This document shows positions 3,612 through 50,177 of a stretch of 64,000 nt of DNA, piece after piece. The stretch covers positions 319,947 to 383,946 of the forward strand of contig JACQAM010000007.1 of assembly GCA_016194975.1 (NCBI GenBank). Reading direction: 5' to 3'. Under the pieces are notes generated by a model. That model had not been told where the DNA came from and ran no database searches. It worked only from the letters and a program-made list of their open reading frames with translations. The position numbers and the translations under genes are program-made. This stretch comes from Bacteroidota bacterium (GTDB lineage Bacteria; Bacteroidota; Bacteroidia; Palsa-965). The first letter of the stretch is position 1; the number at the start of each line of letters is the position of its first letter.

Positions 3612-3641
3612 TTTAGTACATTAGTACTAAACTTTTTAGTA
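3612..3641. promoter_or_regulatory. Probable autoregulatory operator of the XRE/S24 gene
   Basis: A perfect 8-bp inverted repeat, TTTAGTAC (3612-3619) and GTACTAAA (3624-3631), is separated by ATTA. A third half-site, TTTAGTA, at 3635-3641 runs into the ATG of the regulator gene. Dyad operators abutting the start of an XRE/S24 repressor gene usually mediate autorepression; binding by this protein is inferred. Confidence 0.6.
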
Positions 3642-4405: not shown

Positions 4406-4410
4406 TGATT

Positions 4411-4503
4411 GCTTGGTTGCTTGTGTTGCTTGGTTGGTTGTGTTGGTTCGTGATGAAGAATTCGCACTTTCCGCATTCCGTTCCCAAGCCATAACTCATA
4501 ACC
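4411..4503. repeat. Intergenic word-repeat cluster
   Basis: This holds GCTTGGTTGCTTGTGTTGC-type repeats (4411-4450), CCGCATTCCGTTCCCA (4471-4486) and CCATAACTCATAACC (4489-4503). The second word recurs in the 58.7-58.9 kb tandem array and the third is identical at 978-992. It is non-coding spacer before the metalloprotease gene. Confidence 0.5.
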
Positions 4504-4608
4504 GGTTTTTTGTTGAAAAAAACCGTCTGAATAAAACCAGTCCTCGTCGAAAAACGCAGTAGCATCTGCCCGATAATCCGTAAATTGTTTTCCCTAATTC
4601 ACACACTT

Positions 4609-16024: not shown

Positions 16025-17487
16025 CGGTGAAATTCATAAATGAAATACGTTTCGGAACGCGTACCAGATTTTTCAAAGAAAATGAGCGGATGCAAATGAA
16101 GAGCAGGCGCAGAATCAATAGCCGTTTGTCGCAGCATTTTATTCGTGATGAGGAGTCCGCCTTTGCCCAGGTCATTACTCACAGGAATTAATTTTCCAAG
16201 TAACACATCCTGTGGAATGATAAATGGAATTGTATTCCACCTGCAGAAACTCTCGTAATTATTATTCTCAGCATACCATAAATTCCTGTCCAGGTACGCA
16301 GCGATCGGCGGGCCAGTGGAATGATCATGCACAACAATAAACTCCTTGTCCATTTTATTCTTTTTTATCCAATCGGTCACTTTTTTTGAAGCAGAAAAAT
16401 CATTGCGAAAGTCCCAGGCGTACATAAATATACCGGAGATCAGTTGAACAAGGAGAACAGAATAGAAAAGCATCTTCCCTGGCTTTGTCATCAACTTTTT
16501 TTCATCTTCATTGATCCAGATCGCAAAGAGGAGAAAAAGAAAAAGTACACCGCAATGCCGCGATGCAACCATGAGAGGCGAAAAGAAAACAAAACAGGCA
16601 ACAAGCAAAGCAGCGGAATAAAACAGGAGTCGCGTTTTTTTTGTGGTAAGAATAAAATAAGGAAGTATCCACACGGCCGCCGAAGGGAGTACTGCCAAAG
16701 TTTTCGAAAGTGAAATGACCCAATTCGAATTCCACGGATGATCGCAACTCATGTCGGGCAATGGAAAAAATCCTTTCCAGAGAATTGAAAATGCTTTCCC
16801 GATACGTTTAAAAGAAAAATAAGCATCCGTATCATAGCGATAGAGAAAATGATCAGAGGGCGGATGCGCTTCGTAGCCGACGAAAAACAATACTCCAAGA
16901 ACGAGACAGAGCGGAATTATTTTCTTAATGGCTATTTTATTTTCATTGCCATAAATACTTTCGGAAAACTCCATCATTAGGAGCACACCCGCGAGCGCGC
17001 AGGCAAACAGGTGCGTGAGCGCAAGAAACGCGAGTGCAAGCGCGAAGAGCCAGAGTTTGTTTTTTCGTTGCGGATAAAGGATAGCAACAACGGTCATCGC
17101 AAGGAAAATGAGTCCGTAATTCCGCGAGATGACGGTGTATTCGTAAAAAATGAAATAACCGAAAACAATTATTATGCATGCATAAAAGCTGAAAGGAGAG
17201 TAACGCATGAAAAGAAAAACAGCAATAGAAGAAATAAGAATGTGTGCAAACTGCATCCAGAACGGATCGTGAGTGAAACGGGTTATGACGAATAACAACA
17301 GATCCCAAAGCAGCGGATGTCCATCGTAGCGCGCGTTGTAGAATAATTCACCAATAGAATGACTGTCTCTTGCCAACAGCCAGTGATGCGCTTCGTCGAG
17401 CCACAATTCATGATGGAGGATCCCGACAAGCGCCAGCCCAAAAAAAATCACCATGGTGATCAGCGAAAATATTTTTCTCTTCCTCAT
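16021..17487 (-). CDS. Polytopic membrane glycosyltransferase-like protein (GT39/GT83-like)
   Basis: 488 residues with roughly ten hydrophobic segments. The first extracytoplasmic loop has the pattern ELWLDEAHHWLLARDSHSIGELF...DGHPLLWDLLLF, close to the acidic DE-containing loop used by ArnT/PMT-like lipid-linked sugar transferases; that Asp-Glu pair is the likely catalytic site. The C-terminal roughly 130 residues form a soluble tail. It overlaps both neighbours by 4 bases, the middle gene of a three-gene operon with a GT87 protein and a radical SAM enzyme. Donor and acceptor are unknown; GT-C membership is likely, the exact family less so. Confidence 0.72.
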   Translation of the reverse strand: MRKRKIFSLITMVIFFGLALVGILHHELWLDEAHHWLLARDSHSIGELFYNARYDGHPLLWDLLLFVITRFTHDPFWMQFAHILISSIAVFLFMRYSPFSFYACIIIVFGYFIFYEYTVISRNYGLIFLAMTVVAILYPQRKNKLWLFALALAFLALTHLFACALAGVLLMMEFSESIYGNENKIAIKKIIPLCLVLGVLFFVGYEAHPPSDHFLYRYDTDAYFSFKRIGKAFSILWKGFFPLPDMSCDHPWNSNWVISLSKTLAVLPSAAVWILPYFILTTKKTRLLFYSAALLVACFVFFSPLMVASRHCGVLFLFLLFAIWINEDEKKLMTKPGKMLFYSVLLVQLISGIFMYAWDFRNDFSASKKVTDWIKKNKMDKEFIVVHDHSTGPPIAAYLDRNLWYAENNNYESFCRWNTIPFIIPQDVLLGKLIPVSNDLGKGGLLITNKMLRQTAIDSAPALHLHPLIFFEKSGTRSETYFIYEFHR

Positions 17488-19097
17488 CGGTTCCCTGTAT
17501 ATCTATGATGATCGATCTCGATCCTTTTTTCTTTTACATTGAACTTTCTCAGCGCATACATACCCAATCCCCTGTCCTTGTCGGATAAAAATATGATCAG
17601 CGAATCATCCATGAAACAAGGTACCCTGATATTAGCAGTAGTTGAAAAAAGTAATTCTCCATTCTCGCGGATCGAATGTCCATCGCAGGAAAGATCTTCA
17701 CTCCCTTCCGCGTATCCCCCGCAATTCACATCTTTTGTTTCAAAACCGTTGCGATCGTAACAGGAAAGCCGCAGCGTATCTCCGAAGTCAACATAATAAC
17801 CGGTAAGCATGGCCGATTCATGATCCAGCAAATAAACACTTTTGTCGTCTTGTTTTCCATTCAGGAGAAAAGGTAAAAATGCAAGAACGAATGCCGGAAC
17901 AAGATATTTCCATTTGAATTGGGGTTTCATTTCAAAAATAATTAGCGCAAAAAGTAGTAGCAGAAACAATAAACGCGGAAAACGTAAAAACACATTCAGT
18001 TGGAAAAAATAAGAAACCGGGATCCCGCAGGCAAGCAAAGCAACAACGAACATTAACGATAATTTTTCTTTTCCAATATTATTTTCTCCAGCGAAGAGCG
18101 CGAGCATAACGATCGCAAACAAAATCATTCCATAAACAGAACCATAACCAACAATGAGGAGCATGATAAATATCCATATAGCGAATTTTGCTTTTACTGA
18201 ACGTTCTCTCGTGAATGAAAATGAAATCCCAACCCACAAACAGAAAAATATGAAAAGTGAATTCAGCAAACGATAAAGAAATACGGATTGAAAAATATTC
18301 CGTGGGTTCAGCAACTGGTCGTGTACGAATACCTGCCGGAGAAAAACATTCATCGACTGGTAAGTTGTCGCAAACGGATCATTGATCTCGTTATTCATCA
18401 GCCGGGGAACGATTACCGTAAAATAATCTTTCATCACTGAAAACGGAATGAAGATCATAGAAATTCCCTGTATAATAAAAATGAAAATGAATGTTGCCGA
18501 AAAGATCCTGTATTCTTTATTGCACCAAAGCATCACTAACAAAACTGCCGGAAATAATTTGAGGTGAATAGCGAGTGCAAAACAAACAGCGCTTGCCCAT
18601 CTCTTCCTTTTTTCCATCAGCAGAATTCCTCCGGCGATCAATGCAAAAAGAAAAAAATAAAGTTGCCCCGAGTCAATATTGCTTTTCATTGGCAGAAAAA
18701 GCAATAACGGAAAGATCAGCAAGTGAACGGAATTTATTTTCGTGCGCACTATAGATGCGTTGAGAACAAAAAGAAAAAGAAAAAGCCCGGCGAGATTGAA
18801 AAGGAGTTTTGAATTTTTCACATCAATGAAAGAAAGCGGAACACAAAAGATCGCAGTGACCGGCGGAACAGGCGTGAAATTCTCAAAGGAACCTTTTTCT
18901 CCTTCGAGAGAGATCATCCCGTTGAAGCTCCAGGCATCATAAATGTTGATTGAGAATTTTCCTTCGCGAAGAAATTTTCCTCCGTAATAATAATTTCCAA
19001 AATCAGAAACAGGTTTGCGATAAGCGTTCAACGCAAATAAAATCCCTGAAAGCAGGATGATTCCGATTGTAATTTGCCTGTAATTGATGGCTTTCAT
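17484..19097 (-). CDS. GT87-family (DUF2029-like) membrane mannosyltransferase-like protein
   Basis: 537 residues, about 10-12 transmembrane helices, then a soluble C-terminal region of roughly 110 residues. Typical GT87 features are SDFGNYYYGGKFLREGKF in the first loop, PVPPVTAIFCVPLSFID, and the GQLYFFLFALIAGGILLMEKR...HLKLFPAVLL stretch. Family members transfer sugars from polyprenyl-phosphate donors outside the cytoplasmic membrane. It is the first gene of the operon and its stop overlaps the next start (ATGA). The soluble C-terminal region contains several Cys residues and is not part of the usual GT87 core; I cannot assign it. Confidence 0.78.
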   Translation of the reverse strand: MKAINYRQITIGIILLSGILFALNAYRKPVSDFGNYYYGGKFLREGKFSINIYDAWSFNGMISLEGEKGSFENFTPVPPVTAIFCVPLSFIDVKNSKLLFNLAGLFLFLFVLNASIVRTKINSVHLLIFPLLLFLPMKSNIDSGQLYFFLFALIAGGILLMEKRKRWASAVCFALAIHLKLFPAVLLVMLWCNKEYRIFSATFIFIFIIQGISMIFIPFSVMKDYFTVIVPRLMNNEINDPFATTYQSMNVFLRQVFVHDQLLNPRNIFQSVFLYRLLNSLFIFFCLWVGISFSFTRERSVKAKFAIWIFIMLLIVGYGSVYGMILFAIVMLALFAGENNIGKEKLSLMFVVALLACGIPVSYFFQLNVFLRFPRLLFLLLLFALIIFEMKPQFKWKYLVPAFVLAFLPFLLNGKQDDKSVYLLDHESAMLTGYYVDFGDTLRLSCYDRNGFETKDVNCGGYAEGSEDLSCDGHSIRENGELLFSTTANIRVPCFMDDSLIIFLSDKDRGLGMYALRKFNVKEKRIEIDHHRYTGNR

Positions 19098-19599: not shown

Positions 19600-21882
19600 A
19601 TGGAATTTATACGTAAACATTTCCGTCTTGTAAGCTGGATCGCCATGGTGCTGGTGACCGGCATCACCGTGCTTTCCATTTACGAATTAAGAAAAACAAG
19701 ATTCGATTACGAGTTCGAAAGTTTTTTCCCGGTTGATGATCCCGACATCGATGTGTATCATGATTTCAGGAAAACTTTCGGTTACGATAATGAATTCGTT
19801 CTTCTTGCGCTCGAAAATAAAAAGGGAATTTTCAATGAGGATTTTCTCGAGCGTGTACAAACGCTCACCGATTCGCTGCGCAATTGCAAAGACATTACGT
19901 CCGTGCAGTCGCCATCCGACATGGAATATCTTTCGGGTTCCACCGGCAAGGAGCCTTACATTCATCTCGGTGAACCGGAAAAATTCAAAACTGATTCTGA
20001 AAATATTTACAAGTGTGAAGAACTGATCGGTTCTTTTTTCGCAACGAACGGAAAAGCAATAAGTATTTACATCAGCACGACGAACGGTATCTCCAAAGAA
20101 CATTCAGATGTCCTGCTCGCGAAGATGAATAAACTCATTGCTGCAGGGTATTTCGATACGGTGCATTTTGCGAGCAAACTGAACGGGCAGAAAGTTTATC
20201 TCGACCGGCTGAAGCGCGAGTTCGTTGTTTTTTTCTGCGCGTCATTTTTTCTTGTCGTTCTTTTTCTTTTTATTTCCTTCCGTTCCTTCTGGGGAATATG
20301 GGTGCCGATCCTCATCGTGATCATTTCCATCATCTGGACACTCGCGCTCATGACCGCGTGCGGGAAACCGCTCGACATCATGACCGTTCTTTTGCCAACG
20401 ATGATGTTCGTGGTGGGCATGTCGGACGTCGTTCACATCGTTACAAAATACCTGGAAGAACTGCGCGAAGTAAAAGGTATTTCAAGATTCGATGCGCTCA
20501 TCAAAACAATAAAAGATGTTGGCTTCGCAACTTTCATCACACTCATCACCACCGGCCTCGGATTTCTCACACTGCTTAATTCTCACATTGTTCCGATCCG
20601 TGATTTCGGATTGTTCACTTCCATCGGCGTTTTTATTTCTTTCATTCTCGCTTTCACCATTATGCCGGTTGTACTGAATGTTATCCGTCATCCGAACCTT
20701 CGTCTTGAGCAAAAGTCATCTCACTTCTGGAGAAAAAATCTTCATCGGTTACTTGCCTGGATATTCCGGAAAAGAAAAATGATCGTGATCGGAACTGTTC
20801 TATTGACGCTTGCAAGTGTTTTCGGTGTGACGAGGATCGAACTGAATAATTATCTCATTGAAGGATTAACGCGGCACGATGTGTTGCGCCAGGATTTTAT
20901 TTATTTCGAAAATAATTTTTCCGGTGTGCGTCCGTTTGAACTCGTGGTAAATCCTTCTGATCCCAAAGGAAATCTTTTCGGATCGAAGGAACTTCATGCC
21001 ATCGATTCATTGGAGAAATGGCTGAAGAAAAATTATTATGTGGGATTCATTCTTTCTCCGGCGACAATAATTAAAGAAGCAAATAAAAGTTTCAACCAGG
21101 GAAATCCGCTTTATTTTAAACTGCCTGATGATTCTGTACTCGCCGGTTTTGTTGCCGACACGGCGAAATTTCTACGAAGAAAAGAAGTAAAACTTTTTGT
21201 AACGCGCGATCTGAAAAAAGGAAGGATCTCCGGAAAGATGCACGATGTGGGAAGTAAAATAATCCGTGCAAAAGATGCGCAGCTCAATGCATTCATGCAA
21301 ACGCCGGAAATGAATTGCATTCAGATAAAACACACAGGCGCGGCAGTGATGCTCGACAAAAACAATGTTTACCTCGTTACGAATATGCTCCAGGGATTAT
21401 TTTTTTCTGTCTTCGTCGTCGGGCTCATCATCGGCGTCATTCATCGTTCCTGGAAAATGGGGCTCATTGCCATCATCCCGAATTTTCTTCCGATCGTTTT
21501 CATTGGAGGATTGATGGGATTCCTCGGCATCGATCTTAAATCTTCAACCTCAATTATTTTCTCCATCGCTTTCGGAATTGCGACTGACGACACCGTACAT
21601 TTTCTAGGGCGATTAAAATTAGAGCGCTCGAAAGGAAGAACCGTTTTTTATGCGCTGAAGAGAACGTATCTCTCCACTGGAAAAGCAGTGGTCGTTACCT
21701 CACTTATTCTCTCCGCCGGATTCATGACACTTATTTTTTCTGCTTTTGAAAGCACTTTCTTTTTCGGAACACTTGTGAGCATCACTTTACTCATTGCAGT
21801 ATTGACCGATCTGCTTTTATTTCCGCTGCTGGTAGTTTGGTTAGTGAGGGATAAAAAATTCAAAAATTCAAAAAAAAATTAA
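19600..21882 (+). CDS. RND-superfamily exporter (MMPL/HAE3-like)
   Basis: 760 residues with the duplicated RND layout: TM1 (residues 8-28), an extracytoplasmic loop of about 180 residues, a bundle of about five TM helices (about 205-370), a second anchor helix near 395, a second periplasmic loop, and a final bundle from about 600. VVGMSDVVHIVTKYLEE in the first bundle and GIATDDTVHFLGRL in the second carry the acidic residues placed like the proton-relay sites of this family. HAE3-type members move lipids, hopanoids or similar hydrophobic molecules; substrate unknown. It is monocistronic, without adaptor or outer-membrane genes, and is preceded directly by a long inverted repeat. Confidence 0.85.
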   Translation: MEFIRKHFRLVSWIAMVLVTGITVLSIYELRKTRFDYEFESFFPVDDPDIDVYHDFRKTFGYDNEFVLLALENKKGIFNEDFLERVQTLTDSLRNCKDITSVQSPSDMEYLSGSTGKEPYIHLGEPEKFKTDSENIYKCEELIGSFFATNGKAISIYISTTNGISKEHSDVLLAKMNKLIAAGYFDTVHFASKLNGQKVYLDRLKREFVVFFCASFFLVVLFLFISFRSFWGIWVPILIVIISIIWTLALMTACGKPLDIMTVLLPTMMFVVGMSDVVHIVTKYLEELREVKGISRFDALIKTIKDVGFATFITLITTGLGFLTLLNSHIVPIRDFGLFTSIGVFISFILAFTIMPVVLNVIRHPNLRLEQKSSHFWRKNLHRLLAWIFRKRKMIVIGTVLLTLASVFGVTRIELNNYLIEGLTRHDVLRQDFIYFENNFSGVRPFELVVNPSDPKGNLFGSKELHAIDSLEKWLKKNYYVGFILSPATIIKEANKSFNQGNPLYFKLPDDSVLAGFVADTAKFLRRKEVKLFVTRDLKKGRISGKMHDVGSKIIRAKDAQLNAFMQTPEMNCIQIKHTGAAVMLDKNNVYLVTNMLQGLFFSVFVVGLIIGVIHRSWKMGLIAIIPNFLPIVFIGGLMGFLGIDLKSSTSIIFSIAFGIATDDTVHFLGRLKLERSKGRTVFYALKRTYLSTGKAVVVTSLILSAGFMTLIFSAFESTFFFGTLVSITLLIAVLTDLLLFPLLVVWLVRDKKFKNSKKN

Positions 21883-36100: not shown

Positions 36101-36733
36101 CTACGCATCGCACGGCACTCTCAGATCGATAAATGTAAGGTACCAGGTGCTTCCCGAAAGTGTGAAATAGAATTTACCGACAGCAGTATTCACCACGGTT
36201 CTCGTGATCTTCGATGCCAGTTGCTTCACCTTGCCCTGGTCGGTTTCCGAAAGCGACGAATACGTCCACGCCTTTTCATCTGCAAAAATATTGAGTTGTG
36301 TTGTAAAACAACCCTCTTTGGAATAGCCGCTGCTTTTATTGCAATCAGCAACCGGCAGTTCTCCTTCTACCGGAACCGCCATCATGTTATTGCGATCTAA
36401 CGGTAGAAGTTTTTTTCCATTCCAGTCAAAATCGTCAAAATGTTTTACGTTCTCGAACTCCGGCATTGCACCCGGCGCATAAATGATCCACAATCCATCA
36501 TTCGGGGAAATGAATTTATCGGCGAGCGAATCTTTACCTGAAGTAGCGGCATCCGCAAATGCACTGTAGATCCAGTTGAACTGGTGAATTTCATCAGCCG
36601 GCTGAAGATCCTGCCTCATCGCTTTCTTCAAAGAATCTTTTGAAGAAAGTGAATCGGTTTTTGATGGGTCCTTCTTTTGATCACCACTACAGGAGAAAAA
36701 AAGAAACGCAAGGAGAATAACAGAATACTTCAT
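36101..36733 (-). CDS. Putative lipoprotein, function unknown
   Basis: 210 residues. Lipoprotein signal MKYSVILLAFLFFSCSGD with the lipid-receiving Cys near residue 15, followed by a low-complexity Lys/Ser/Asp linker and a globular domain of about 170 residues with three Cys in the region ADCNKSSGYSKEGC and near the end (VPCDA). I do not recognise the family. The start lies one base after the stop of the MFS gene, so the two are translated as one operon; it may assist or sense something related to that transporter's substrate (inference). Confidence 0.7.
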   Translation of the reverse strand: MKYSVILLAFLFFSCSGDQKKDPSKTDSLSSKDSLKKAMRQDLQPADEIHQFNWIYSAFADAATSGKDSLADKFISPNDGLWIIYAPGAMPEFENVKHFDDFDWNGKKLLPLDRNNMMAVPVEGELPVADCNKSSGYSKEGCFTTQLNIFADEKAWTYSSLSETDQGKVKQLASKITRTVVNTAVGKFYFTLSGSTWYLTFIDLRVPCDA

Positions 36734-36734
36734 G

Positions 36735-37967
36735 TTATTTTTTTTTAAATTCAGGTTCTTTCGTCAGAAAGATAAGCCAGAAAATTGTGATGACCGCAAC
36801 AAGAGAGGGAAGAATGAATACCGGTAATGGCCCTGCAAATTTCCATAACAATCCTGCTGTAACACTTGCAAAGAGTGTGGCAATACTGGCGAATGCAGAA
36901 AAAAGTCCCAATGCTTTTCCTTTGTCTTCTTGCCCGCAGATCATGCTCACCCATGCGCGTGAAATTCCATCCGTGAATGCAGAATACAATCCGTAAATAA
37001 AAAATAACAGCACAACGATCCGCAGGTTTCCGCTGTGGCCCGGCACAAGCAATGCCATCCCTGAATACATCATCACGAAAAAAACAAATCCCATAATGAG
37101 CATTTTTTTCGGGCCCGATCTGTCCGACAATGATCCTGCCGGAAAAGAAATGATCGCGTAAATGAAATTCGAAAAAATATAACAGGCGATCACCAGCATG
37201 GCGGGAGAAATATTCCATCCCGAAATTATTGCACCATTGGGAAAAAGATCTTTTACCCGCAGAAGAAGGAACATGTCGGAACTGTTGAATAAAGCAAAGA
37301 GCGTGAGTATTCCCACCAACCGCCTGAAAGCACGCGACGATCTTTTCCAGTATGAAAATGAAAAAAGTTTTTTGCGATGAACACTGCTCTTCACTTTCCC
37401 GGCTTTTTCTTTCAGCAGGAACAAAACAGAAACACCGAATAATCCCGGCAACAGTGCGAAATAAAAAAGAGGACGGTAATTTCCGTCGCGGTGAAAACCG
37501 ATCCACACCAAAGCAATGACCGGACCTATGAATGCACCGGCAGTATCCATTGCGCGGTGAAAACCAAAAACTTTTCCGCGCACATTTTGTCCTGTCTCTT
37601 CCGCAAGCATCGCATCACGCGCTCCCGTGCGTACACCTTTTCCCAGGCGATCACTCGCACGCGTGAACAATGCCCAGAAAGGAGACGCAATAAATATTAA
37701 TGAAGGTTTTGCAATGGCACTGAGAAAATATCCGAAGCGAACAAAAGGCAAACGTTTTCCAAGATGATCACTCCATTCGCCGAACCAGCTTTTTGTAGAA
37801 CCCGCCACTGCTTCCGCCACACCTTCAAGAATCCCGATCCATACTACACCATAACCGATCGATGTGAGATAAAGTGGCAACACCGGGTAAAGTAATTCAC
37901 CGGCCATGTCGTTGAGTAAACTCACGACGGAAAGAAGAAAGACAGTTCGCGTTAACCACTTAAACAT
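36735..37967 (-). CDS. Major facilitator superfamily transporter
   Basis: 410 residues with about 12 transmembrane helices. Loop 2-3 carries the MFS signature variant GEWSDHLGKRLPFVRFGY and the later half FPAGSLSDRSGPKKMLIMGF, so both halves keep the motif A D-x-x-G-(K/R) pattern. RLGKGVRTGARDAMLAE in the first half is characteristic of a group of bacterial MFS proteins annotated as drug or small-molecule transporters. Substrate unknown. First gene of a two-gene operon with the lipoprotein downstream. Confidence 0.88.
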   Translation of the reverse strand: MFKWLTRTVFLLSVVSLLNDMAGELLYPVLPLYLTSIGYGVVWIGILEGVAEAVAGSTKSWFGEWSDHLGKRLPFVRFGYFLSAIAKPSLIFIASPFWALFTRASDRLGKGVRTGARDAMLAEETGQNVRGKVFGFHRAMDTAGAFIGPVIALVWIGFHRDGNYRPLFYFALLPGLFGVSVLFLLKEKAGKVKSSVHRKKLFSFSYWKRSSRAFRRLVGILTLFALFNSSDMFLLLRVKDLFPNGAIISGWNISPAMLVIACYIFSNFIYAIISFPAGSLSDRSGPKKMLIMGFVFFVMMYSGMALLVPGHSGNLRIVVLLFFIYGLYSAFTDGISRAWVSMICGQEDKGKALGLFSAFASIATLFASVTAGLLWKFAGPLPVFILPSLVAVITIFWLIFLTKEPEFKKK

Positions 37968-39227: not shown

Positions 39228-40598
39228 TCATCGGCTCATTCTCATCCTGGCCCTGGAAATCAGCGATTTTAATTTCAACTTCACATCATTTTTCCCCGAT
39301 TTCCTTTTTTTCCTGAAAGCCACTTCATTATTCACCCAGCGTAAAGCATGCTCATAATATTTTCTCGGGTGCGTTCTCTTGAAATCAATATCACGGTCGG
39401 TAGAAACTGACCATTCTCTTTTCCCAATGAATTTTTTTTCTGTTTCTTCATAAAGCGGCGTTCCTTTTATCGGGTAAGCGATCGTGAGCGTGAAATGGTC
39501 GGGATCAGAATCAGAAAGATGATCAATCGTGGCGCGAATATCTTCTTCTGTTTCTCCCGGGTAACCGAGCATGATAAATGTTCCGGCTTCCATTCCGTGT
39601 TTTTTCACAAGTTGTATTATAGCACAAACCTCTTTCACTTCCACTCTCCGGTCCATCGCGTCAATGATCTTCTGTGATCCGCTCTCGGCTCCTATCCACA
39701 CACGGAAACAACCGGAATTCCTCAGCAGCCGTATTACTTCTTCATTCAGCCGGTCGGCACGTGTAATGATCTCGTAACTGATCTTTATTTTCCTGGAAAT
39801 AATTTCATCGTGAAATGCTTTCATCCATTTATGACTGATCGTGAACACATCATCCACAAACCAGATCTTATCGAAGGAATAATTTTTTTTCAGTTGTTCG
39901 ATCTCCTCTGCAACGAGTACTGCGCTTCTTCTCCGGTACGTGCCTCCATATACAGCGCGGCTGCACCACTTGCAGGTATATGGGCATCCGCGCATCGTGC
40001 TCATGGAGATCATGGAATAGCCGTGCGCATTTTTCCATGCGGTAAAATATTTTTGAAGTTCCACTTTATTCCGCGCCGGGAATGGCAGCTCGTCTATATT
40101 CTTCAGAAGTGTTCTTTCCGGATTGAAAATGATCTCCTCATTTTTTTTCCAGGCAATTCCATTTACAGCAGCAAGCTCTTTGTTGTTTTCAAAAACACAA
40201 CATAATTCATGCATCGTTTCTTCTCCTTCACCGATTACCACCACATCTGCTCCTGCCTGCAGGAATTCTTTTGCGTGATGACGGACTTCCGGCCCGCCGA
40301 GAATGATCTTTGTTCTCCTGAATTTATTTTCTTTCCTGAGAAATGTGATCAGCCGGAGCACATTCAGTTTGGTCATCAGGTTGGTATAAATTCCGATCAC
40401 ATCCGGAATTTCTTTCAACAGGAATTCTTTCTGCTCCTGAAACGAAGAAAAGGTGCTGTCGAAAATATTAACAGCTTTCCCTTTTTTCTCAAGGAAAGCA
40501 CCGATATATAAAATTCCGAGCGGGACATACGGTTTCATGATGAGTTTTTCTTTCTCATCTTCTTCCAGGAAATATCCGTGTGTCAATACGATTTTCAA
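39228..40598 (-). CDS. B12-binding-type radical SAM enzyme B (five-gene operon)
   Basis: 456 residues. N-terminal B12-binding fold with PLGILYIGAFLEKKG, IILGGPEVRHHAKEFL and GADVVVIGEGEETM; then a radical SAM barrel with Cys205, Cys209 and Cys212 in MRGCPYTCKWC. Later motifs IWFVDDVF, FRVWIGAESGSQKI and FIMLGYPGETEEDI are those of the class that includes methylases, ring-forming and cyclase-like enzymes. The reaction is not predictable. It is last in the operon, 6 bases after the class I methyltransferase, and is clearly paralogous to enzyme A two genes upstream. Confidence 0.88.
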   Translation of the reverse strand: MKIVLTHGYFLEEDEKEKLIMKPYVPLGILYIGAFLEKKGKAVNIFDSTFSSFQEQKEFLLKEIPDVIGIYTNLMTKLNVLRLITFLRKENKFRRTKIILGGPEVRHHAKEFLQAGADVVVIGEGEETMHELCCVFENNKELAAVNGIAWKKNEEIIFNPERTLLKNIDELPFPARNKVELQKYFTAWKNAHGYSMISMSTMRGCPYTCKWCSRAVYGGTYRRRSAVLVAEEIEQLKKNYSFDKIWFVDDVFTISHKWMKAFHDEIISRKIKISYEIITRADRLNEEVIRLLRNSGCFRVWIGAESGSQKIIDAMDRRVEVKEVCAIIQLVKKHGMEAGTFIMLGYPGETEEDIRATIDHLSDSDPDHFTLTIAYPIKGTPLYEETEKKFIGKREWSVSTDRDIDFKRTHPRKYYEHALRWVNNEVAFRKKRKSGKNDVKLKLKSLISRARMRMSR

Positions 40599-40604
40599 GT
40601 GAAT

Positions 40605-41399
40605 TTATTTTCGCACAAGATCAATGAGGTAATGATCGGCTTTATCAGACAAACGGGAAAATTTTCCGAGAATTGATTCAGCGGCATTCAACATTTCCAG
40701 ATAAAAGGAATGTTGCTGAAAATAGTTCCGGGTATAAGAAGGTGGAATGGCTATACCAATCGGTTTGCAATTCCGGACTGTGAAATATTTTCCGAAATAC
40801 TTTTTTATTTCTTCCGGGCTATAGTACCATGTTGCCACTTTGCTCCCGGCAATATCTGCTTCAACTGCGTTTGCATTTCTCCGTCGATACGCATTTTTCA
40901 TATCCTTCTTTCTTTTGAAATAAAATTGCTCCCATTTGCAGTTCCTTCCCATGATCACCATTACGAGACGCCCGCTCCCGTTGAGCAAGTCATTCATTTT
41001 TTCAGCAGCGTCCTGTATCGAATCCGGATCAAGGCAATTCATTCCACCGAAATCAGAAAAGATTATATCGAATTTTTTTCCGGAAAATTTTTTCGGCACA
41101 TTACGAATATCACATTGAATGATTTTTATGTTCTCACTTTTCAGTTTCTGTTCAGCCGCACGGATCATTCCGGAAGAACTATCAGTAGCCGTTACAAGGA
41201 ATCCTTTCCGGCAAAGCCATTCCGCATCTGTCCCCGTTCCGCAATTCAATTCGAGCAATTCAGGATGTGTCGTCGAAGAAATATTTTTTTCAAGATAACG
41301 CCAAACTCTTTTGCGCTGCAGTTTCCCGATGCACGTTTCCGTGAAGGATGCGTCATAGTTTGCGGCATATTTATCGAAAGCGATCTCAGCTGCGTTCAT
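40605..41399 (-). CDS. Class I SAM-dependent methyltransferase (UbiE-like fold)
   Basis: 264 residues. Motif I is LELNCGTGTDAEWL (about residues 48-61), followed by VTATDSSSGMI and IIQCDIRNVP, the SAM-binding acidic positions; FDIIFSDFGGMNCL fills motif IV. It transfers a methyl group from S-adenosylmethionine to an unknown small molecule. Its start overlaps the end of radical SAM enzyme A by 14 bases, and enzyme B follows at 6 bases, so it is part of one translation-coupled pathway. Confidence 0.87.
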   Translation of the reverse strand: MNAAEIAFDKYAANYDASFTETCIGKLQRKRVWRYLEKNISSTTHPELLELNCGTGTDAEWLCRKGFLVTATDSSSGMIRAAEQKLKSENIKIIQCDIRNVPKKFSGKKFDIIFSDFGGMNCLDPDSIQDAAEKMNDLLNGSGRLVMVIMGRNCKWEQFYFKRKKDMKNAYRRRNANAVEADIAGSKVATWYYSPEEIKKYFGKYFTVRNCKPIGIAIPPSYTRNYFQQHSFYLEMLNAAESILGKFSRLSDKADHYLIDLVRK

Positions 41400-42852
41400 C
41401 GGGAAATGCTGCTAATTTTTTTCTTCCTGAAAATTCAAGCTGCGCATAAAATGGAATTGCTGCAACGCGGCGCAGATCGTTTCGCCCGGAGCCGGATGGT
41501 GAAAGAATTATTTTTTTCAGGAGACGCACTCCCTGTTTCCGGCGGAATCTCCGGTGTACATAGCGATGAAGTATCCTGTAAAATTCTTTGGGGTAAAAAT
41601 TACTGAACATCAGTTCGAGATCATCGGAATCGGACCAGTTTTGTTTCTGAACGAGTTCTGTTTTCACAGTTTCATAGAATTTTGTCCCGGGCAATGGATA
41701 GGAAACAGAAATTCCAATATCATCCGGCTGAAGTTCATCGACCAGTGCAATTGTTTTCTCAATATCTTCTTTCATCTCGCCGGGATAACCGAACTGGAGA
41801 AAAAGCGCAGGATGAATGTTGTTTTTTTTCAGCAAGCGCGTGGCTTCCCTGATCTGTCCGATAGTCGTCCCTTTTTCCATTGCATCCAGAATTTTCTGCG
41901 ATCCGCTTTCCGCGCCCATCCACACGCTCTCACATCCTGCACGTGCGAGATCATTCACATAATTTTCCTGCACGAGCAGATCGGCCCTTGATTGTATTTT
42001 GAATTTTATTTTCAGTCCTTTCACCTCGAGAATATTCGCAAATTTTTTCACCCAGCCCGGTTTCAATCCGAAAATATCGTCAGCAAACCAGAAATGGTCA
42101 GGACTAAATTTTTTCTGAAGCATCGAAAGTTCTTCCACTACTTTTTCCGGTGAGCGTGAATTGTATCGATTGCCGTAGATCGGTTTTGCGCACCAGTTGC
42201 ATTTGTACGGACATCCTCTCGTGGTAGCAACGTTGAGAGAAAAAGAATCATGTGCTGCCATCCACGCTGAGCGGTATTTTTCAATGTCCAGAAGATCCCA
42301 CGCAGGAACAGGAAAAAGATCGAGGTCTTTCATCACTTCACTGTTCCTGTTGCAGATCGTCTTTCCATTTTTCCTGGAAACCAATCCCGGAATATTTTCG
42401 GGAATATTTTTTTTCCTGAGTTCATTCACCAGCATCAGCAACGATTGTTCAGCTTCGCCGCGAATAACAAAATCGGCGCCGTTGTCGAGGTATTTTTCAT
42501 AATGATCACTTGCATCGCTGCTGCACACGACGACCGTGGAGGAAAATTTTTTTGCAACGCGCTGCATTTCAAACGCAGCTTCCCGCATATTGGTCAGGCA
42601 CATTTTTGTGAGGTAATTGAAACCATCATCAAAGATTACGAACACATGCGGACTGAATTTCTCCATGAACGGGATCAATTCACCGGCACGGTTCGAGAAT
42701 TGCGGATCGAACAATTGAACACGGTGTCCATTTTCACGGAGGAATGCAGCAGCGAGAATTGTACCGTATGGCGGATAAGGTTGCGCAGCCCGATCTTGTT
42801 TCTGATCGAAATGCATGAACCAGGAATGAGAAAAAAGAACGCGCATGTTCAT
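41386..42852 (-). CDS. B12-binding-type radical SAM enzyme A (five-gene operon)
   Basis: About 488 residues. I start it at the ATG at 42852 (MNMRVLFSHS), which overlaps the upstream stop as ATGA; the longer frame from 42873 adds seven residues without support. N-terminal B12-binding-type Rossmann domain (PYGTILAAAFLRENGH, GADFVIRGEAEQSL), then the radical SAM motif Cys214, Cys218, Cys221 in TRGCPYKCNWC and WFADDIFGL, VWMGAESGSQKI, LFLQFGYPGEM. Paralogue of enzyme B. Together they could perform two successive radical methylations or C-C bond formations on one metabolite (inference). Confidence 0.87.
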   Translation of the reverse strand: MNMRVLFSHSWFMHFDQKQDRAAQPYPPYGTILAAAFLRENGHRVQLFDPQFSNRAGELIPFMEKFSPHVFVIFDDGFNYLTKMCLTNMREAAFEMQRVAKKFSSTVVVCSSDASDHYEKYLDNGADFVIRGEAEQSLLMLVNELRKKNIPENIPGLVSRKNGKTICNRNSEVMKDLDLFPVPAWDLLDIEKYRSAWMAAHDSFSLNVATTRGCPYKCNWCAKPIYGNRYNSRSPEKVVEELSMLQKKFSPDHFWFADDIFGLKPGWVKKFANILEVKGLKIKFKIQSRADLLVQENYVNDLARAGCESVWMGAESGSQKILDAMEKGTTIGQIREATRLLKKNNIHPALFLQFGYPGEMKEDIEKTIALVDELQPDDIGISVSYPLPGTKFYETVKTELVQKQNWSDSDDLELMFSNFYPKEFYRILHRYVHRRFRRKQGVRLLKKIILSPSGSGRNDLRRVAAIPFYAQLEFSGRKKLAAFPDERS

Positions 42853-43835
42853 TCTGGTTTTGCAATTTTCCATTCCCAGTTGGCGGCAGGAATTGAGATC
42901 CTGTGTTTACTCTCCAGAAAATATCTCCTGTTGCTCAATTCACTGATCACCTTCTGCTGAAATCCATTCGGGTGATGTTTGGATGTATTTTTTTTTGAGC
43001 GGAATTTATTTTCGAAAACCTCCGGATCTTTTTCCGGGAATTTTCTTTTCCATCTCCTCAATGTCATTTTCCAGAAACGATTGTCGAGACGATCGCCTGA
43101 TTTTCCTGAGAATATTTTTTCCATCATTCGTTTTAGTAAAGTCGACCGTACGCCCGGTGATTCCTCCATTACTTTTTTCTCCGTATTCGGATAAAACAGT
43201 TCCGCCCATTTATTTTCCTGGAGGAATTTTTCACACAACATTCCCCCGCGCATAGCTTTCAGAAAAATGATCTCCGTTGCCACAAAAAGATTCCGGTCGG
43301 GAATGGACATATCATGGGAATCGACAAAATAATTAACGCAGAAATATTTTTTCGAATTCAACAGGAATACTTTTTTGAACAGGACAAGAAAAGTCCGCGC
43401 CACCCACAACCTGCCCGGGCGTGTGATGATGAAATAATCAATGTCACTGTTCCTGTCCATCGTCCCTTTTGAAAGTGATCCGCTGATGAAAACCGCCTCC
43501 ACGAATGGAAATGAAGAAATGAAAGAAGAAAATCTTTTCGCTTTTTTCTGGAAACGCAACGCACGCGCCATACGCTCGCCCCTGAGATCAACATATTCTT
43601 CTTTCCCGCTGAGGAACCAGAAACCGTTTTTTTCTTCGAGTATTCCTTTCGCAGAAAATTCTTCGATCGCAAATGCAACTTCAGAAAGGGAAGGATTATT
43701 CCACTGGCAGTAACGATGGATCTCGTCGGTCGTCAGCGGATGACGGAAAATATCGAAATAAATTATGGTATTGATGACGGCCACGGCTGTAGCAGAAAGT
43801 GATGTGCTGAGATTTTCTTTGAGAGTGGAATACAT
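42849..43835 (-). CDS. Winged-helix plus minimal nucleotidyltransferase-fold protein
   Basis: 328 residues. Residues about 15-80 look like a winged helix (IIYFDIFRHPLTTDEIHRY...ILEEKNGFWFLSGKEE). Next comes the polymerase-beta-type nucleotidyltransferase signature GS at 119-120 followed by SDIDYFII (Asp131, Asp133), the metal-binding pair. The rest is helical. Stand-alone enzymes of this fold transfer nucleotides to small molecules, tRNA or proteins. It lies directly between methyltransferase 1 (adjacent, no gap) and radical SAM enzyme A (4-base overlap). Activation of a biosynthetic substrate is a possible role; a nucleic-acid role is equally open. Confidence 0.8.
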   Translation of the reverse strand: MYSTLKENLSTSLSATAVAVINTIIYFDIFRHPLTTDEIHRYCQWNNPSLSEVAFAIEEFSAKGILEEKNGFWFLSGKEEYVDLRGERMARALRFQKKAKRFSSFISSFPFVEAVFISGSLSKGTMDRNSDIDYFIITRPGRLWVARTFLVLFKKVFLLNSKKYFCVNYFVDSHDMSIPDRNLFVATEIIFLKAMRGGMLCEKFLQENKWAELFYPNTEKKVMEESPGVRSTLLKRMMEKIFSGKSGDRLDNRFWKMTLRRWKRKFPEKDPEVFENKFRSKKNTSKHHPNGFQQKVISELSNRRYFLESKHRISIPAANWEWKIAKPE

Positions 43836-44519
43836 TCAACGCAATTTACCTAAATAATCCTGAAGTTGTAATTCATAAATAAAAACGCTTTCTCCCCAAT
43901 GGTATTCAGTCTTCAGCAATTCTTCTTTCCATCCCGATTCCGAAGCGATATGAAATATTTTATCACGATCACAATCATCAGAAAGCACCATAATAATTTT
44001 CCCAGTCCTTGAAATAAAATCCCCCGCGTCGCGAAAAAATCTGCGGAAGAATTCGAGATCTTTTCCGGCATACCAGGCACGATCTTCTGTTGTTGCCGGA
44101 TCGGCGGAATAAAAAGGAGGATTCACCAGGATCAGATCGAATTTTTCTGCTGGAATTTTTTCAAAAAGATCGGAGCAGAAAAGTCGGACTTCAACATTGT
44201 TCAGTAAAAAATTATTTTCCGCACATTTCATTGCTTTTTCCGAAAGATCGAATGCAAACTGTTGCGCGCCCGCATGTGCACACGCGATACTGAGAATTCC
44301 GCATCCGCATCCCGCTTCTATTATTTTTTTTCGATTGAGATCCTGTGCCGCAATAAAATTCAACAACGCTTTTGTAGAATAAAAAAATCCCGGGTGAAAA
44401 ACACCGGGATCAATGAGTACGCTGATCGTTCCGTATTTATATTTTCTTTGCTTACGAAGATAATGGCGAACAATGGGCTTCCAGGTCCGGTTGAGCAACT
44501 TCTTTACGATACGATTCAA
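43836..44519 (-). CDS. NPPF-type SAM-dependent methyltransferase
   Basis: 227 residues. Motif I IIEAGCGCGILSIACA (about 66-81) and motif IV LILVNPPFYSAD (about 130-141). The NPPF signature marks the group that methylates planar nitrogens (adenine or guanine in nucleic acids, glutamine in release factors), so a base, amide or heteroaromatic nitrogen is the likely target. First gene of the five-gene operon; its stop directly abuts the ATG of the nucleotidyltransferase. A small metal-binding lipoprotein gene ends 18 bases upstream on the same strand and may be co-transcribed. Confidence 0.82.
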   Translation of the reverse strand: MNRIVKKLLNRTWKPIVRHYLRKQRKYKYGTISVLIDPGVFHPGFFYSTKALLNFIAAQDLNRKKIIEAGCGCGILSIACAHAGAQQFAFDLSEKAMKCAENNFLLNNVEVRLFCSDLFEKIPAEKFDLILVNPPFYSADPATTEDRAWYAGKDLEFFRRFFRDAGDFISRTGKIIMVLSDDCDRDKIFHIASESGWKEELLKTEYHWGESVFIYELQLQDYLGKLR

Positions 44520-44537: not shown

Positions 44538-44756
44538 TTATTTCACTTCTTTCATGGGCATACCACAAACAGGGCAGTTCCCCGGTTTATCGTACGTTGT
44601 ATCACGCTGGCATTTCATCGGGCACTGGTATTTCACTTGCGTAGTTTTAGCAGCCGGGGCCCCCATGCTGTCGGTGTTCGAAGTCGTTCCTCCTTTATTT
44701 CCGCATGATGCGAGGAATGAAGAGGCGATAACGGCGATGACGAGAAATTTTTTCAT
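44538..44756 (-). CDS. Heavy-metal-binding-domain lipoprotein (first copy)
   Basis: 72 residues. Lipoprotein signal with FLASCGNKGG (Cys at about 18), a short linker, then a heavy-metal-binding domain: YQCPMKCQRDTTYDKPGNCPVCGMPM, with the CPM and CPxCGM Cys/Met ligands. The same module is the N-terminal domain of many CusB adaptors, where it is thought to hand Cu(I)/Ag(I) to the pump. It is anchored in the outer or inner membrane facing the periplasm. It lies just outside the MITE-bounded island, reading away from it; the MITE sits 34 bases upstream of its start. Confidence 0.88.
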   Translation of the reverse strand: MKKFLVIAVIASSFLASCGNKGGTTSNTDSMGAPAAKTTQVKYQCPMKCQRDTTYDKPGNCPVCGMPMKEVK

Positions 44757-46700: not shown

Positions 46701-46716
46701 TATCACGTAATTGAAA

Positions 46717-47991
46717 ATGGTACAGAAACTCATTTCACTTTCTTTCCGTAACCGCTGGCTGGTTTTACTTTTCAGCGGGGGATTACTCGCATGGGGAATT
46801 TATTCCATGAAGCAGAATCCTGTTGACGCCATTCCTGATCTCTCGGAAAACCAGGTGATCGTTTTTACGGAATGGATGGGAAGAAGTCCGCAAGTGATCG
46901 AAGACCAGATCACGTATCCGCTTGCATCCAACCTTCAGGGAATTCCGAAAGTAAAAAACATCCGTGCGACTTCCATGTTCGGGATGAGTTTTGTTTACAT
47001 CGTTTTCAATGACGACGTGGATATTTATTGGGCGAGAACACGTGTGATGGAACGATTGAATTATGCGCAGCGACTTTTGCCGGAAGGAGTAACGCCTACG
47101 CTCGGCCCCGATGGCACAGGCGTGGGCCATGTGTTTTGGTACACGCTCGATGCGCCCGGGTATGATCTCGGGGAATTGCGCGCGTTGCAGGATTGGTATG
47201 TAAAGTATGGTTTGCAAACGGTGAATGGAGTAAGTGAAGTGGCATCGTTCGGCGGATTTCAGAAACAATACCAGGTGAATATCGATCCGAACAAATTGAA
47301 CTATTACAATATTTCGCTGATGGATGTTCTGAAAAACATCAAGGCGAATAATAATGATGTGGGCGGAAGAAAATTCGAGATGAGTGATATGAGTTATATC
47401 GTGAGGGGAATGGGCTACATCAAAAATATTTCTGAAGTAGAAAATATTCCTGTTGGGAAAGACGGCACCACACCGATCCTTGTAAAAGACATCGGCACGG
47501 TGCAGATGGGCGGCGATCTGCGGCTCGGAATTTTTGATGAGAACGGCGATGGTGAAGTGATAGGCGGAATTGTGGTGATGCGATACGGCGAAAATGCCGA
47601 TAAGGTGATCACCGATGTAAAAAAGAAAATGGCGGAAGTGGAAAAAGGTTTGCCTTCGGGAGTGAAATTCAAAATTGCCTATGACCGCAGTGAATTGATA
47701 GAAGCTTCCATTTCGTCGGTCAAGAAAACTATAATAGAGGAAATGATCGTTGTTTCGCTCATCGTGCTTTTATTTCTTTTTCACTGGAAAAGCGCGCTCA
47801 TCATCATCCTACAGATCCCGGTTTCAATTGCTGCAAGTTTTATTTTACTACAGGCATTCGGCATTTCATCAAACATCATGTCCATAACAGGAATAGCGCT
47901 TGCGATCGGGGTGGTGGTCGATGACGGAATTGTAATGGTTGAAAATTCATACCGGCATCTTGCCGAATCGGAACAAGATTCCAAAAAATAA
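46717..47991 (+). CDS. CusA/CzcA-type RND pump, N-terminal half (TM1-TM4)
   Basis: About 424 residues from the ATG at 46717. It corresponds to the first 40% of a roughly 1040-residue CusA: TM1 (13-32), the porter PN1/PN2 and docking regions (NPVDAIPDLSENQVIVFTEW, RVMERLNYAQRLLPEGVTPTLGPDGTGVGHVFWY), TM2, TM3 and TM4, the last with the proton-relay pair Asp402-Asp403 in IGVVVDDGIVMVEN. The frame then ends in a short polar tail RHLAESEQDSKK at the loop joining TM4 and TM5. No inactivating stop or frameshift occurs before that. The C-terminal half is encoded as a separate gene at 48261, with a lipoprotein gene between them. Confidence 0.9.
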   Translation: MVQKLISLSFRNRWLVLLFSGGLLAWGIYSMKQNPVDAIPDLSENQVIVFTEWMGRSPQVIEDQITYPLASNLQGIPKVKNIRATSMFGMSFVYIVFNDDVDIYWARTRVMERLNYAQRLLPEGVTPTLGPDGTGVGHVFWYTLDAPGYDLGELRALQDWYVKYGLQTVNGVSEVASFGGFQKQYQVNIDPNKLNYYNISLMDVLKNIKANNNDVGGRKFEMSDMSYIVRGMGYIKNISEVENIPVGKDGTTPILVKDIGTVQMGGDLRLGIFDENGDGEVIGGIVVMRYGENADKVITDVKKKMAEVEKGLPSGVKFKIAYDRSELIEASISSVKKTIIEEMIVVSLIVLLFLFHWKSALIIILQIPVSIAASFILLQAFGISSNIMSITGIALAIGVVVDDGIVMVENSYRHLAESEQDSKK

Positions 47992-48019
47992 AATCAAAAC
48001 AAATAAAACCAAAAACAAA

Positions 48020-48256
48020 ATGAAAAAAACAATTCTTATTTCCATCTGCGCACTCACACTCGCATTCGGCGCATGCAACAGTTCCTCTTCCGGAAAAACA
48101 GGAGGCGATTCTGCAAAGATCAGTGCGTTCGACACTGCTAAACTTACGAAAGGGTCAACTTTCTACCAATGCACAATGGATCCGTCTGTTGTTTCTGATC
48201 AGCCCGGCAAATGCCCGAAGTGCGGAATGGATATGACAAAAGTTGAAAAAAAATAA
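48020..48256 (+). CDS. Heavy-metal-binding-domain lipoprotein lodged between the pump halves
   Basis: 78 residues, started at the ATG at 48020, which opens a lipoprotein signal (MKKTILISICALTLAFGACNSS, Cys at about 20). A linker precedes the metal module FYQCTMDPSVVSDQPGKCPKCGMDM, in which CPM is replaced by CTM but the CPxCGM part is intact. It is preceded by an A-rich 28-base spacer after the first pump half; its stop is 4 bases before the GTG of the second half (or overlaps a possible TTG start at 48243). Its place inside an otherwise single pump gene suggests joint dosage with the pump. Confidence 0.88.
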   Translation: MKKTILISICALTLAFGACNSSSSGKTGGDSAKISAFDTAKLTKGSTFYQCTMDPSVVSDQPGKCPKCGMDMTKVEKK

Positions 48257-48260
48257 TACG

Positions 48261-50177
48261 GTGAACGAAGAAAATAAACATAAAGAAGAAAAGCGCCTTG
48301 CCATTATAGAACGTGCCAGTCACCAGATCGGCAAAGGCGCTTTTTATTCCACCATCATCATAGTGGCTTCCTTCCTTCCTGTTTTCCTGCTCACGGGACA
48401 GGAAGGAAAATTATTTTCTCCGCTTGCGTGGACCAAAACTTTCATTCTCATTATCGATGCTTTCATTGCAGTGACACTTGTGCCGGTGCTCGCCTCTTTT
48501 TTCCTGAAAGGAAAATTCAAACCCGAATCCAAAAATCCGGTGAATAGTTTTCTGCAGAAATTATATTCTCCCGTTGTTAAATTCTGTTTGCGATGGAGAT
48601 GGCTCACCATCGGAATAAATTTCACTGCACTTTGCATTTCCATCCCGATGATGCTGAGTCTCGGTTCCGAATTCATGCCGCCGCTCGATGAAGGAAGTAT
48701 TTTATTCATGCCCGTGACCATGCCCGACGCATCGAATGCGGAAATAAAAAGGATTTTACAGTTGCAGGACCGCATCATCAAAGATGTTCCCGAAGTAAAA
48801 AATGTATTGGGAAAAGCAGGCCGCGCTTCTACCGCGACCGATAATTCACCGATCAGCATGATCGAGACGATCATTCTTCTCAAACCGAAAAATGAATGGC
48901 GGCCGGGAATAACAAAAGAAGATATCATCAATGAATTGAATGCAAAACTCCAGATACCGGGAACTGTAAATGGATTTACGCAACCGATCATCAACCGCAT
49001 CAATATGCTTTCGACAGGGATCAGGACTGATGTGGGTGTGAAAATTATGGGCGATAATCTCGATACAATAAATGTCATTGAACAAAAAATAAAAGAAGCA
49101 TTGACAGGAATTGACGGAGTGAAAGACTTGTACGCAGATCCGATCACCGGGGGAAAATATCTTGACATCAAAATCAACAAAGAAGAGATCGGCCGTTATG
49201 GATTGAGTGTTGACGATGTGAATATGGTGATCGAATCACTCATCGGAGGAATGAAACTCACCACGACGATAGAAGGAAGAAAAAGATTCAGTGTGAATGC
49301 GCGCCTGCCGCAGGATTACAGGAATTCTATTGAAGACATTAAGCGGACAATTATTCAGACGCAGGACTTCGGCCCTATTCCACTTTCTGCTGTTGCAGAT
49401 GTTTCTTTTTCTGAAGGCCCGCCCATGATACAGTCTGAAAATTCTTTACTGAGAGGAACGGTGCTCTTCAATGTGCGCGAACGCGATCTTGGAAGTACAG
49501 TGGAAGATGCAAGAAAAAAAATTGAACAGGCGATCAAAAAACTTCCGAAAGGATATTTCATTGAATGGAGCGGACAGTGGGAAAATGAGATCCGTGCTAC
49601 GAATACTCTTAAAATTATTGTTCCGATCGTGATCTTCATCATTTTCCTCGTGCTCTACATGGTTTACAAATCACTGCGCGAAGCATTTTTCAGTTTGATC
49701 ACCGTGCCGTTCGCACTCATCGGTGGCGTGTACATGATCTATTTCTATCACGTGAATCTTTCTGTTGCCGTAGCTGTAGGATTCATTGCACTTTTCGGAA
49801 TTGCCGTGCAAACCGGAATTTTTATGGTGATCTATTTGCACGAATCGATGCACGATCTGGTGAAACTACGCGGCAATTCGCGCGAAACGATCAGTGATGC
49901 TGACTTACGCGAATATGTTTACCGCGGTGCAGCGCAACGACTCCGCCCGAAGATCATGACCGTATGTGTTGCACTTTTCGGGTTGATCCCTGTCTTATGG
50001 TCGCACGGTGTGGGAAGTGATGTGATGATCCCGATCGTGTTGCCGATGATCGGCGGAGTATTCACTTCGTCGATACATGTGTTGCTCACTACTCCTGTTG
50101 TTTTTGAAATGACAAAAAGATACGAGTTGAATAAATTCGGAAAAATGGATATGGTAGAATCGTCGATCAAACACTGA
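48261..50177 (+). CDS. CusA/CzcA-type RND pump, C-terminal half (TM5-TM12)
   Basis: About 638 residues from a GTG at 48261, 4 bases after the lipoprotein stop; a TTG at 48243 is an alternative. It starts in the TM4-TM5 loop (VNEENKHKEEKRLAIIERASHQ) and carries TM5-TM6 (IIIVASFLPVFLLTGQEGKLFSPLAWTKT), TM7, the second porter region and TM8-TM12 without a break. Nothing from the normal pump seems lost at the junction. NRINMLSTGI matches the region of CusA Met573, but the positions I align with Met623 and Met672 read Leu and non-Met, so the copper-type Met triad looks incomplete. Two polypeptides would have to assemble each protomer. Confidence 0.9.
   Translation: MNEENKHKEEKRLAIIERASHQIGKGAFYSTIIIVASFLPVFLLTGQEGKLFSPLAWTKTFILIIDAFIAVTLVPVLASFFLKGKFKPESKNPVNSFLQKLYSPVVKFCLRWRWLTIGINFTALCISIPMMLSLGSEFMPPLDEGSILFMPVTMPDASNAEIKRILQLQDRIIKDVPEVKNVLGKAGRASTATDNSPISMIETIILLKPKNEWRPGITKEDIINELNAKLQIPGTVNGFTQPIINRINMLSTGIRTDVGVKIMGDNLDTINVIEQKIKEALTGIDGVKDLYADPITGGKYLDIKINKEEIGRYGLSVDDVNMVIESLIGGMKLTTTIEGRKRFSVNARLPQDYRNSIEDIKRTIIQTQDFGPIPLSAVADVSFSEGPPMIQSENSLLRGTVLFNVRERDLGSTVEDARKKIEQAIKKLPKGYFIEWSGQWENEIRATNTLKIIVPIVIFIIFLVLYMVYKSLREAFFSLITVPFALIGGVYMIYFYHVNLSVAVAVGFIALFGIAVQTGIFMVIYLHESMHDLVKLRGNSRETISDADLREYVYRGAAQRLRPKIMTVCVALFGLIPVLWSHGVGSDVMIPIVLPMIGGVFTSSIHVLLTTPVVFEMTKRYELNKFGKMDMVESSIKH

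Follow-up and report, generated by a model that had tools for sequence, protein, structure and literature searches.

A recurrent cassette of B12-type radical SAM enzymes, methyltransferases and a nucleotidyltransferase in Bacteroidota, possibly acting on an envelope glycan or glycolipid

Five genes packed on one strand of a Bacteroidota genome raise the question of whether they encode a single pathway and, if so, what it makes. They lie at 39228-44519 of a stretch of 64,000 nucleotides (assembly GCA_016194975.1, contig JACQAM010000007.1, GTDB lineage Bacteroidota, Bacteroidia, Palsa-965), hereafter called the window at its full length, and encode two radical S-adenosylmethionine (SAM) enzymes of the B12 type (A and B), two class I SAM methyltransferases (M1 and M2) and a nucleotidyltransferase (NT). 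Based on gene order and co-inheritance, the cassette, extended by a third radical SAM enzyme (C) encoded elsewhere in the window, is very likely one functional unit. As the likeliest of several readings, and one that we hold tentatively, the genes would form one biosynthetic or tailoring pathway with the core C-M1-NT-A-M2-B, the product being most likely part of an envelope glycan or glycolipid. The core genes of the window are the following:

43836-44519, minus strand: M1, class I SAM methyltransferase, HemK2/RsmC-like, with an NPPF motif; TTG start; Pfam MTS 5e-20
42849-43835, minus strand: NT, winged helix plus Pol-beta-type nucleotidyltransferase (GS...DxD); Pfam NTP_transf_2 1e-5
41386-42852, minus strand: radical SAM A, B12 type; ATG at 42852, longest open reading frame (ORF) to 42873; Radical_SAM 5e-20
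40605-41399, minus strand: M2, class I SAM methyltransferase; Methyltransf_25 1e-14
39228-40598, minus strand: radical SAM B, B12 type, paralogue of A; B12-binding 1e-14, Radical_SAM 2e-25
14522-16024, minus strand: radical SAM C, third enzyme of the B12 type; B12-binding and Radical_SAM (Pfam) both above cut-off; co-occurs with NT

Operon structure and co-inheritance

Inspection of the five ORFs of the operon found all of them intact, with junctions of 0 (M1/NT), -4 (NT/A), -14 (A/M2) and +6 (M2/B) bases, exactly as the initial annotation had given them. With the ATG at 42852 taken as the start of A, the NT/A junction is an ATGA in which the stop of NT overlaps that start. The proposal that the genes form one operon held as well, since the same order and overlaps recur in relatives. 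These were sought in a sample of 12 genomes from the order and one of 395 genomes (197 genera) from the class, from which 36 further loci were read. Within the order, NT was found in 8 of the 12 genomes, and the order M1-NT-A-M2-B is kept in four loci (L016, L017, L018 and L021) and, until the contig ends, in a fifth (L022). In L021 and L022, an additional B12 radical SAM gene, C, precedes M1. The C of the window is 66% identical to that of L021 and lies 23 kb from the five-gene operon. Seven relatives carry the six-gene cassette C-M1-NT-A-M2-B, which is complete in L075, L079, L082, L084, L103 and L107 among the class loci, while L085, L089 and L098 keep the genes in one locus but divided among C-M1, NT(-A), A-M2 and B modules. 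Thus, the five-gene set first described is a real operon, but the core comprises at least six genes, and C had not been listed.

Direct succession was counted over 59 loci, in which NT is followed by A 47 times, A by M2 40 times, M2 by B 21 times, M1 by NT 18 times and C by M1 17 times. The NT-A junction is most often a 4-base overlap, although exact gaps are approximate because gene starts in the loci of relatives were called mechanically. Gene order and spacing exceed chance. The NT-A pair is also found side by side outside the class, in other Bacteroidota. A scan of named genomes with one NT sequence returned a single relative, in Mariniphaga, and a plasmid search for NT returned none.

A profile search of the class identified NT in 62 of 395 genomes and 40 of 197 genera, nearly always as a single copy. 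The initial annotation had named scattered genes with no co-occurrence as the contrary outcome of a gene-neighborhood check, and the opposite was found: besides the kept order, all 34 genomes with B (of 395) carry NT (Fisher p 2e-32), as do 38 of the 39 with C (of 395; p 2e-35), p values that overstate independence because the co-occurrence tests ignore relatedness. For A, the test takes 345 genomes as the first 345 of the same draw, and 50 of the 51 genomes with A carry NT, the sole exception being a genome that is 57% complete. In addition, NT, B and C are jointly absent in sister species of the same genus (G001/G006) and of the same family (G007/G008); some of these four genomes are incomplete, G006 and G008 not being among them. 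Given the many genera and this joint absence, a shared function is very likely.

Enzyme families and predicted chemistry

Every enzyme of the cassette belongs to a known superfamily. The search against NCBIfam, however, gave no model above cut-off for any of the five operon proteins or for C, and NT had no match at all, in agreement with the earlier statement that the set could not be matched to a known pathway: no characterized family was found above cut-off. A and B are paralogues, as had been noted from the sequence, with 32% identity over 462 residues and a position as sister clades in the tree (support 100/99), C standing apart; deeper placement is unsure because the outgroup branches are long. 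The radical SAM cysteines, CxxxCxxC, are invariant in A, B and C across all aligned relatives, and the GG loop of the B12 domain is kept in B and C and missing from A. In A, the Pfam Radical_SAM domain is clear and the B12-binding domain scores 29.5 bits, just under the cut-off of 32.1. Its predicted model (mean predicted local distance difference test score, pLDDT, 82) matches over the full length MgmA, TsrM, OxsB, AprD4, CysS and TokK, with E values from 6e-20 to about 1e-12. The radical SAM enzymes of the cassette share with cobalamin-dependent radical SAM enzymes (MgmA, TsrM, OxsB, CysS, TokK) a B12-binding Rossmann domain and a radical SAM barrel with CxxxCxxC. Among the NCBIfam models, the best ones for A and B are radical SAM models of the BchE, HpnJ and PhpK type, at a fraction of their thresholds, and all scores for curated B12 radical SAM equivalogs (BchE, HpnJ, PhpK, ladderane type, MgmA, AprD4) are far below cut-off, which sets A, B and C apart from these families. 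In PDB profile searches, AprD4 ranks second for A and for B and first for C, mostly over the radical SAM half, and its model NF033070 scores far below cut-off. AprD4 is the radical SAM diol dehydratase of aminoglycosides; it acts on a sugar-like substrate, is not a methylase and shows that the fold can lose cobalamin binding. About 5 kb past the right end of the window, the genome encodes a fourth radical SAM protein of the B12 type (484 residues, L023:5444-6898, minus strand), which shares no more than 26-27% identity with A, B and C.

The predicted model of NT (pLDDT 91) shows a winged helix followed by the nucleotidyltransferase core. In an alignment of 32 relatives, S118, G119, D131 and D133 are invariant and the presumed third catalytic acid, D172, is present in most of the sequences, not all. 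Against the PDB, the NT profile found nothing significant by sequence, and Foldseek returned weak matches only, the best being MNT proteins (E 2e-3), with AadA and LinB lower. NT has the same Pol-beta core (GS...DxD) as MntA, AadA and LinB; unlike them, it has no PDB sequence match, carries a winged-helix N-terminus, lacks a HEPN partner and is found in biosynthetic operons. A role in defense or as a HEPN-MNT toxin-antitoxin system was rejected, as no HEPN gene was found among the neighbors and NT had no PADLOC match.

In M1, NPP is invariant in all 18 relatives aligned. Its PDB profile matches are MJ0882, N6AMT1 (HemK2) and HemK, and it also resembles RsmC and METTL5. Like HemK2/N6AMT1 and RsmC, M1 keeps NPP[YF] and matches their profiles, but unlike them it falls below the curated cut-offs and is encoded in a biosynthetic cassette. 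M2 is found naturally fused to A in one relative (L099:7186-9471, minus strand; 761 residues), with A at residues 5-482 and M2 at about 500-761.

In the pathway that we favor, NT would put a nucleotide monophosphate on an intermediate, to serve as an activating leaving group or to stay as a decoration, and would work closely with A. The three cobalamin-type radical SAM enzymes would methylate or rearrange unactivated carbons by radical chemistry, and M1 and M2 (two or more classical SAM methyltransferases) would cap other positions, with A and M2 probably acting one after the other on a shared intermediate. The product would be completed by membrane glycosyltransferases, GT87 for example, and moved by a flippase or a resistance-nodulation-division (RND) exporter. 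Each of these reactions, as well as the glycan nature and the export step, is what we infer.

Neighboring genes and the nature of the product

The cassette often travels with genes for a SPASM radical SAM protein, an amidohydrolase, a further methyltransferase, a glycosyltransferase and a flippase. Near 42 loci, GT4 was found at 9, GT87 at 9, a flippase-like gene at 8, a SPASM radical SAM gene at 6 and an amidohydrolase, distantly like aminofutalosine and guanine deaminases, at 4, counts that are descriptive because the loci themselves supplied the query genes; GT9 genes also lie near some loci. A Pfam comparison set 80 genes within two positions of the core against 80 drawn at random from part of the same genomes, covering the 25 commonest families, with single matches in the control hidden. 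Methyltransferases account for 9 of the 80 genes near the core versus at most 1 of 80 random ones (p between 0.003 and 0.018), which supports their enrichment next to the core. The genes near the core further include group 1 glycosyltransferases (4), SPASM (4), sugar transferases (3), amidohydrolases (3), Wzy (2) and Wzz (2). The glycan link of the cassette is suggestive, the sample of 80 versus 80 being too small to decide. As an example of a related setting, NT homologues without A (L094, L101, L102 and, from Mariniphaga, L026) sit in exopolysaccharide clusters alongside an epimerase gene and genes resembling M2, perhaps the original context of NT, and their location there is why we lean toward a glycan product. 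Unlike the exopolysaccharide and glycolipid clusters of Bacteroidota in which such NTs occur, the radical SAM cassette has no conserved polymerase or chain-length gene. Taken together, the surroundings lean weakly toward a glycan or glycolipid.

Several points weigh against an envelope glycan made with cobalamin and nucleotidyl transfer. The 80 random genes include three GT2 and two epimerase genes, so the control regions hold some glycosyltransferases too. No single glycosyltransferase family accompanies most loci, and the full cassettes L084 and L104 are among those with no recognized glycosyltransferase nearby. Cobalamin binding by A is read from the predicted fold only, the activity of NT is not assured because its presumed third acid is not universal, and the co-occurrence statistics carry no correction for relatedness.

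In the window, C has an operon of its own, and a divergent exporter gene lies beyond it:

16021-17487, minus strand: putative GT-C-like membrane protein; invariant W-x-D-E loop (4 homologues); 4-base overlap with C; no Pfam match
17484-19097, minus strand: GT87 glycosyltransferase, Pfam GT87 1.5e-22; 4-base overlap with the 16021-17487 gene; probable accessory gene
19600-21882, plus strand: MMPL/RND exporter, MMPL 2e-26; divergent from the C operon

A homologue of the GT-C-like protein is encoded between A and B in G010, in a single run that also holds GT4, a flippase-like protein, C, a methyltransferase, an amidohydrolase and NT. This protein would be accessory at most, because it is patchy: it was found in 4 of the 12 genomes sampled in the order, and one of the four has no NT. 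In L017, an orthologue of the MMPL/RND exporter (61% identical) lies ahead of M1 at a distance of 10 bp, and in L018 it is convergent with B; the exporter possibly transports the pathway product. Another possible exporter is the major facilitator superfamily (MFS) transporter encoded, together with a 210-residue lipoprotein, downstream of B (36101-37967, minus strand), a position kept in L016 and L017.

Further genes were observed around the cassette. A methyltransferase-amidohydrolase pair (M3-AMH, deaminase-like), usually near C, is found in L105, L091, L093, L139, L142, L153 and L154. Near the six-gene cassette of L107, a flippase-like membrane protein is fused to an FkbM-type methyltransferase domain (2928-4790, plus strand). 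In the window, L016, L020 and L072, genes for acyl-CoA dehydrogenase and thiolase lie close to the operon, seemingly through conserved genome position and not for a functional reason. A 72-residue lipoprotein with a CPMKC...CPVCGM heavy-metal-binding motif is encoded on the strand of M1, 18 bp ahead of that gene (44538-44756, minus strand); the lipoprotein resembles the adjoining metal-efflux genes and is probably outside the pathway, although it could be co-transcribed with the M1 operon. A CusA-like heavy-metal RND transporter of the window is seemingly split into two ORFs (46711-47991 and 48243-50177, plus strand), between which lies the ORF of a small heavy-metal-binding lipoprotein (47939-48256).

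Alternative pathways and significance

A modest chance is left for a natural product that is secreted and has a nucleoside or aminosugar as its scaffold. In that case, NT would make or use a nucleotidyl intermediate, the radical SAM enzymes would work in the manner of OxsB, whose substrate is a nucleotide, or of AprD4, whose substrate is an aminoglycoside, a deaminase-type amidohydrolase and the SPASM protein would add steps, and the MFS or RND proteins would export the product. The fold of A resembles both OxsB and AprD4, AadA and LinB are among the weak matches of NT, the amidohydrolase-methyltransferase pair with its distant likeness to aminofutalosine and guanine deaminases lies near C in several loci, and an MFS gene is found downstream in the window, L016 and L017. 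However, a presence in 40 of the 197 sampled genera and beyond the class is broad for a single secondary metabolite, no resistance gene recurs, and glycosyltransferases and flippases are frequent neighbors. As had been stated earlier, no polyketide synthase, nonribosomal peptide synthetase or precursor-peptide gene was noticed among the operon neighbors, where short peptides were not searched for.

It is improbable that the cassette modifies a macromolecule, with M1 and the radical SAM enzymes methylating RNA, the ribosome or a protein and NT nucleotidylating it. The likeness of M1 to HemK2/N6AMT1, RsmC and METTL5 fits such a role, as do the winged helix of NT and the best fold match of A, MgmA, which is a protein glutamine methylase. 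Still, a single modification is a poor fit for a set with three radical SAM enzymes, at least five accessory enzymes and glycosyltransferases, the presence is patchy even inside one genus, and no nucleic-acid-binding partner was found. Slightly more improbable again is a lipid pathway of the hopanoid or ladderane type, with the lipid carried by the MMPL/RND pump. HpnJ and ladderane-type B12 radical SAM are among the NCBIfam models that score best for A and B, and the RND neighbor is similar to HpnN and the sterol-sensing domain. We rejected this pathway, as those models are far below cut-off, the RND adjacency is confined to the order (0 of the 36 class loci), genes for an isoprenoid cyclase or a fatty-acid synthase do not recur in the vicinity and NT would have no obvious role. 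A phosphonate or phosphinate pathway with PhpK-like P-methylation is very unlikely and was rejected because, although a PhpK-family model is the best NCBIfam match of B (178 bits versus a cut-off of 600) and was followed up, no phosphoenolpyruvate mutase match (TIGR02320) was found in the genome, which is 99.8% complete, and no phosphonate gene was seen near the cassette in relatives.

The envelope glycan or glycolipid thus remains our preferred reading. A bolder form of it, which we consider unlikely, is that the cassette makes a phylum-wide, so far undescribed class of envelope glycolipids or glycans of Bacteroidota, in which the three cobalamin radical SAM enzymes would set C-methyl groups and the winged-helix Pol-beta transferase a nucleotide monophosphate, through a radical SAM-methyltransferase relay that is sometimes one fused protein. 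No paper on the cassette was found in the open-licence text of PubMed Central, weak evidence given that several queries demanded many terms jointly. An unnamed, co-inherited set of six genes with three divergent B12 radical SAM enzymes would point to chemistry that has not been looked for in an environmentally dominant phylum. The close pairing of NT with A and the naturally occurring fusion of A to M2 offer concrete, testable enzyme partnerships, and the recurring operon may serve as a handle for the discovery of the product.

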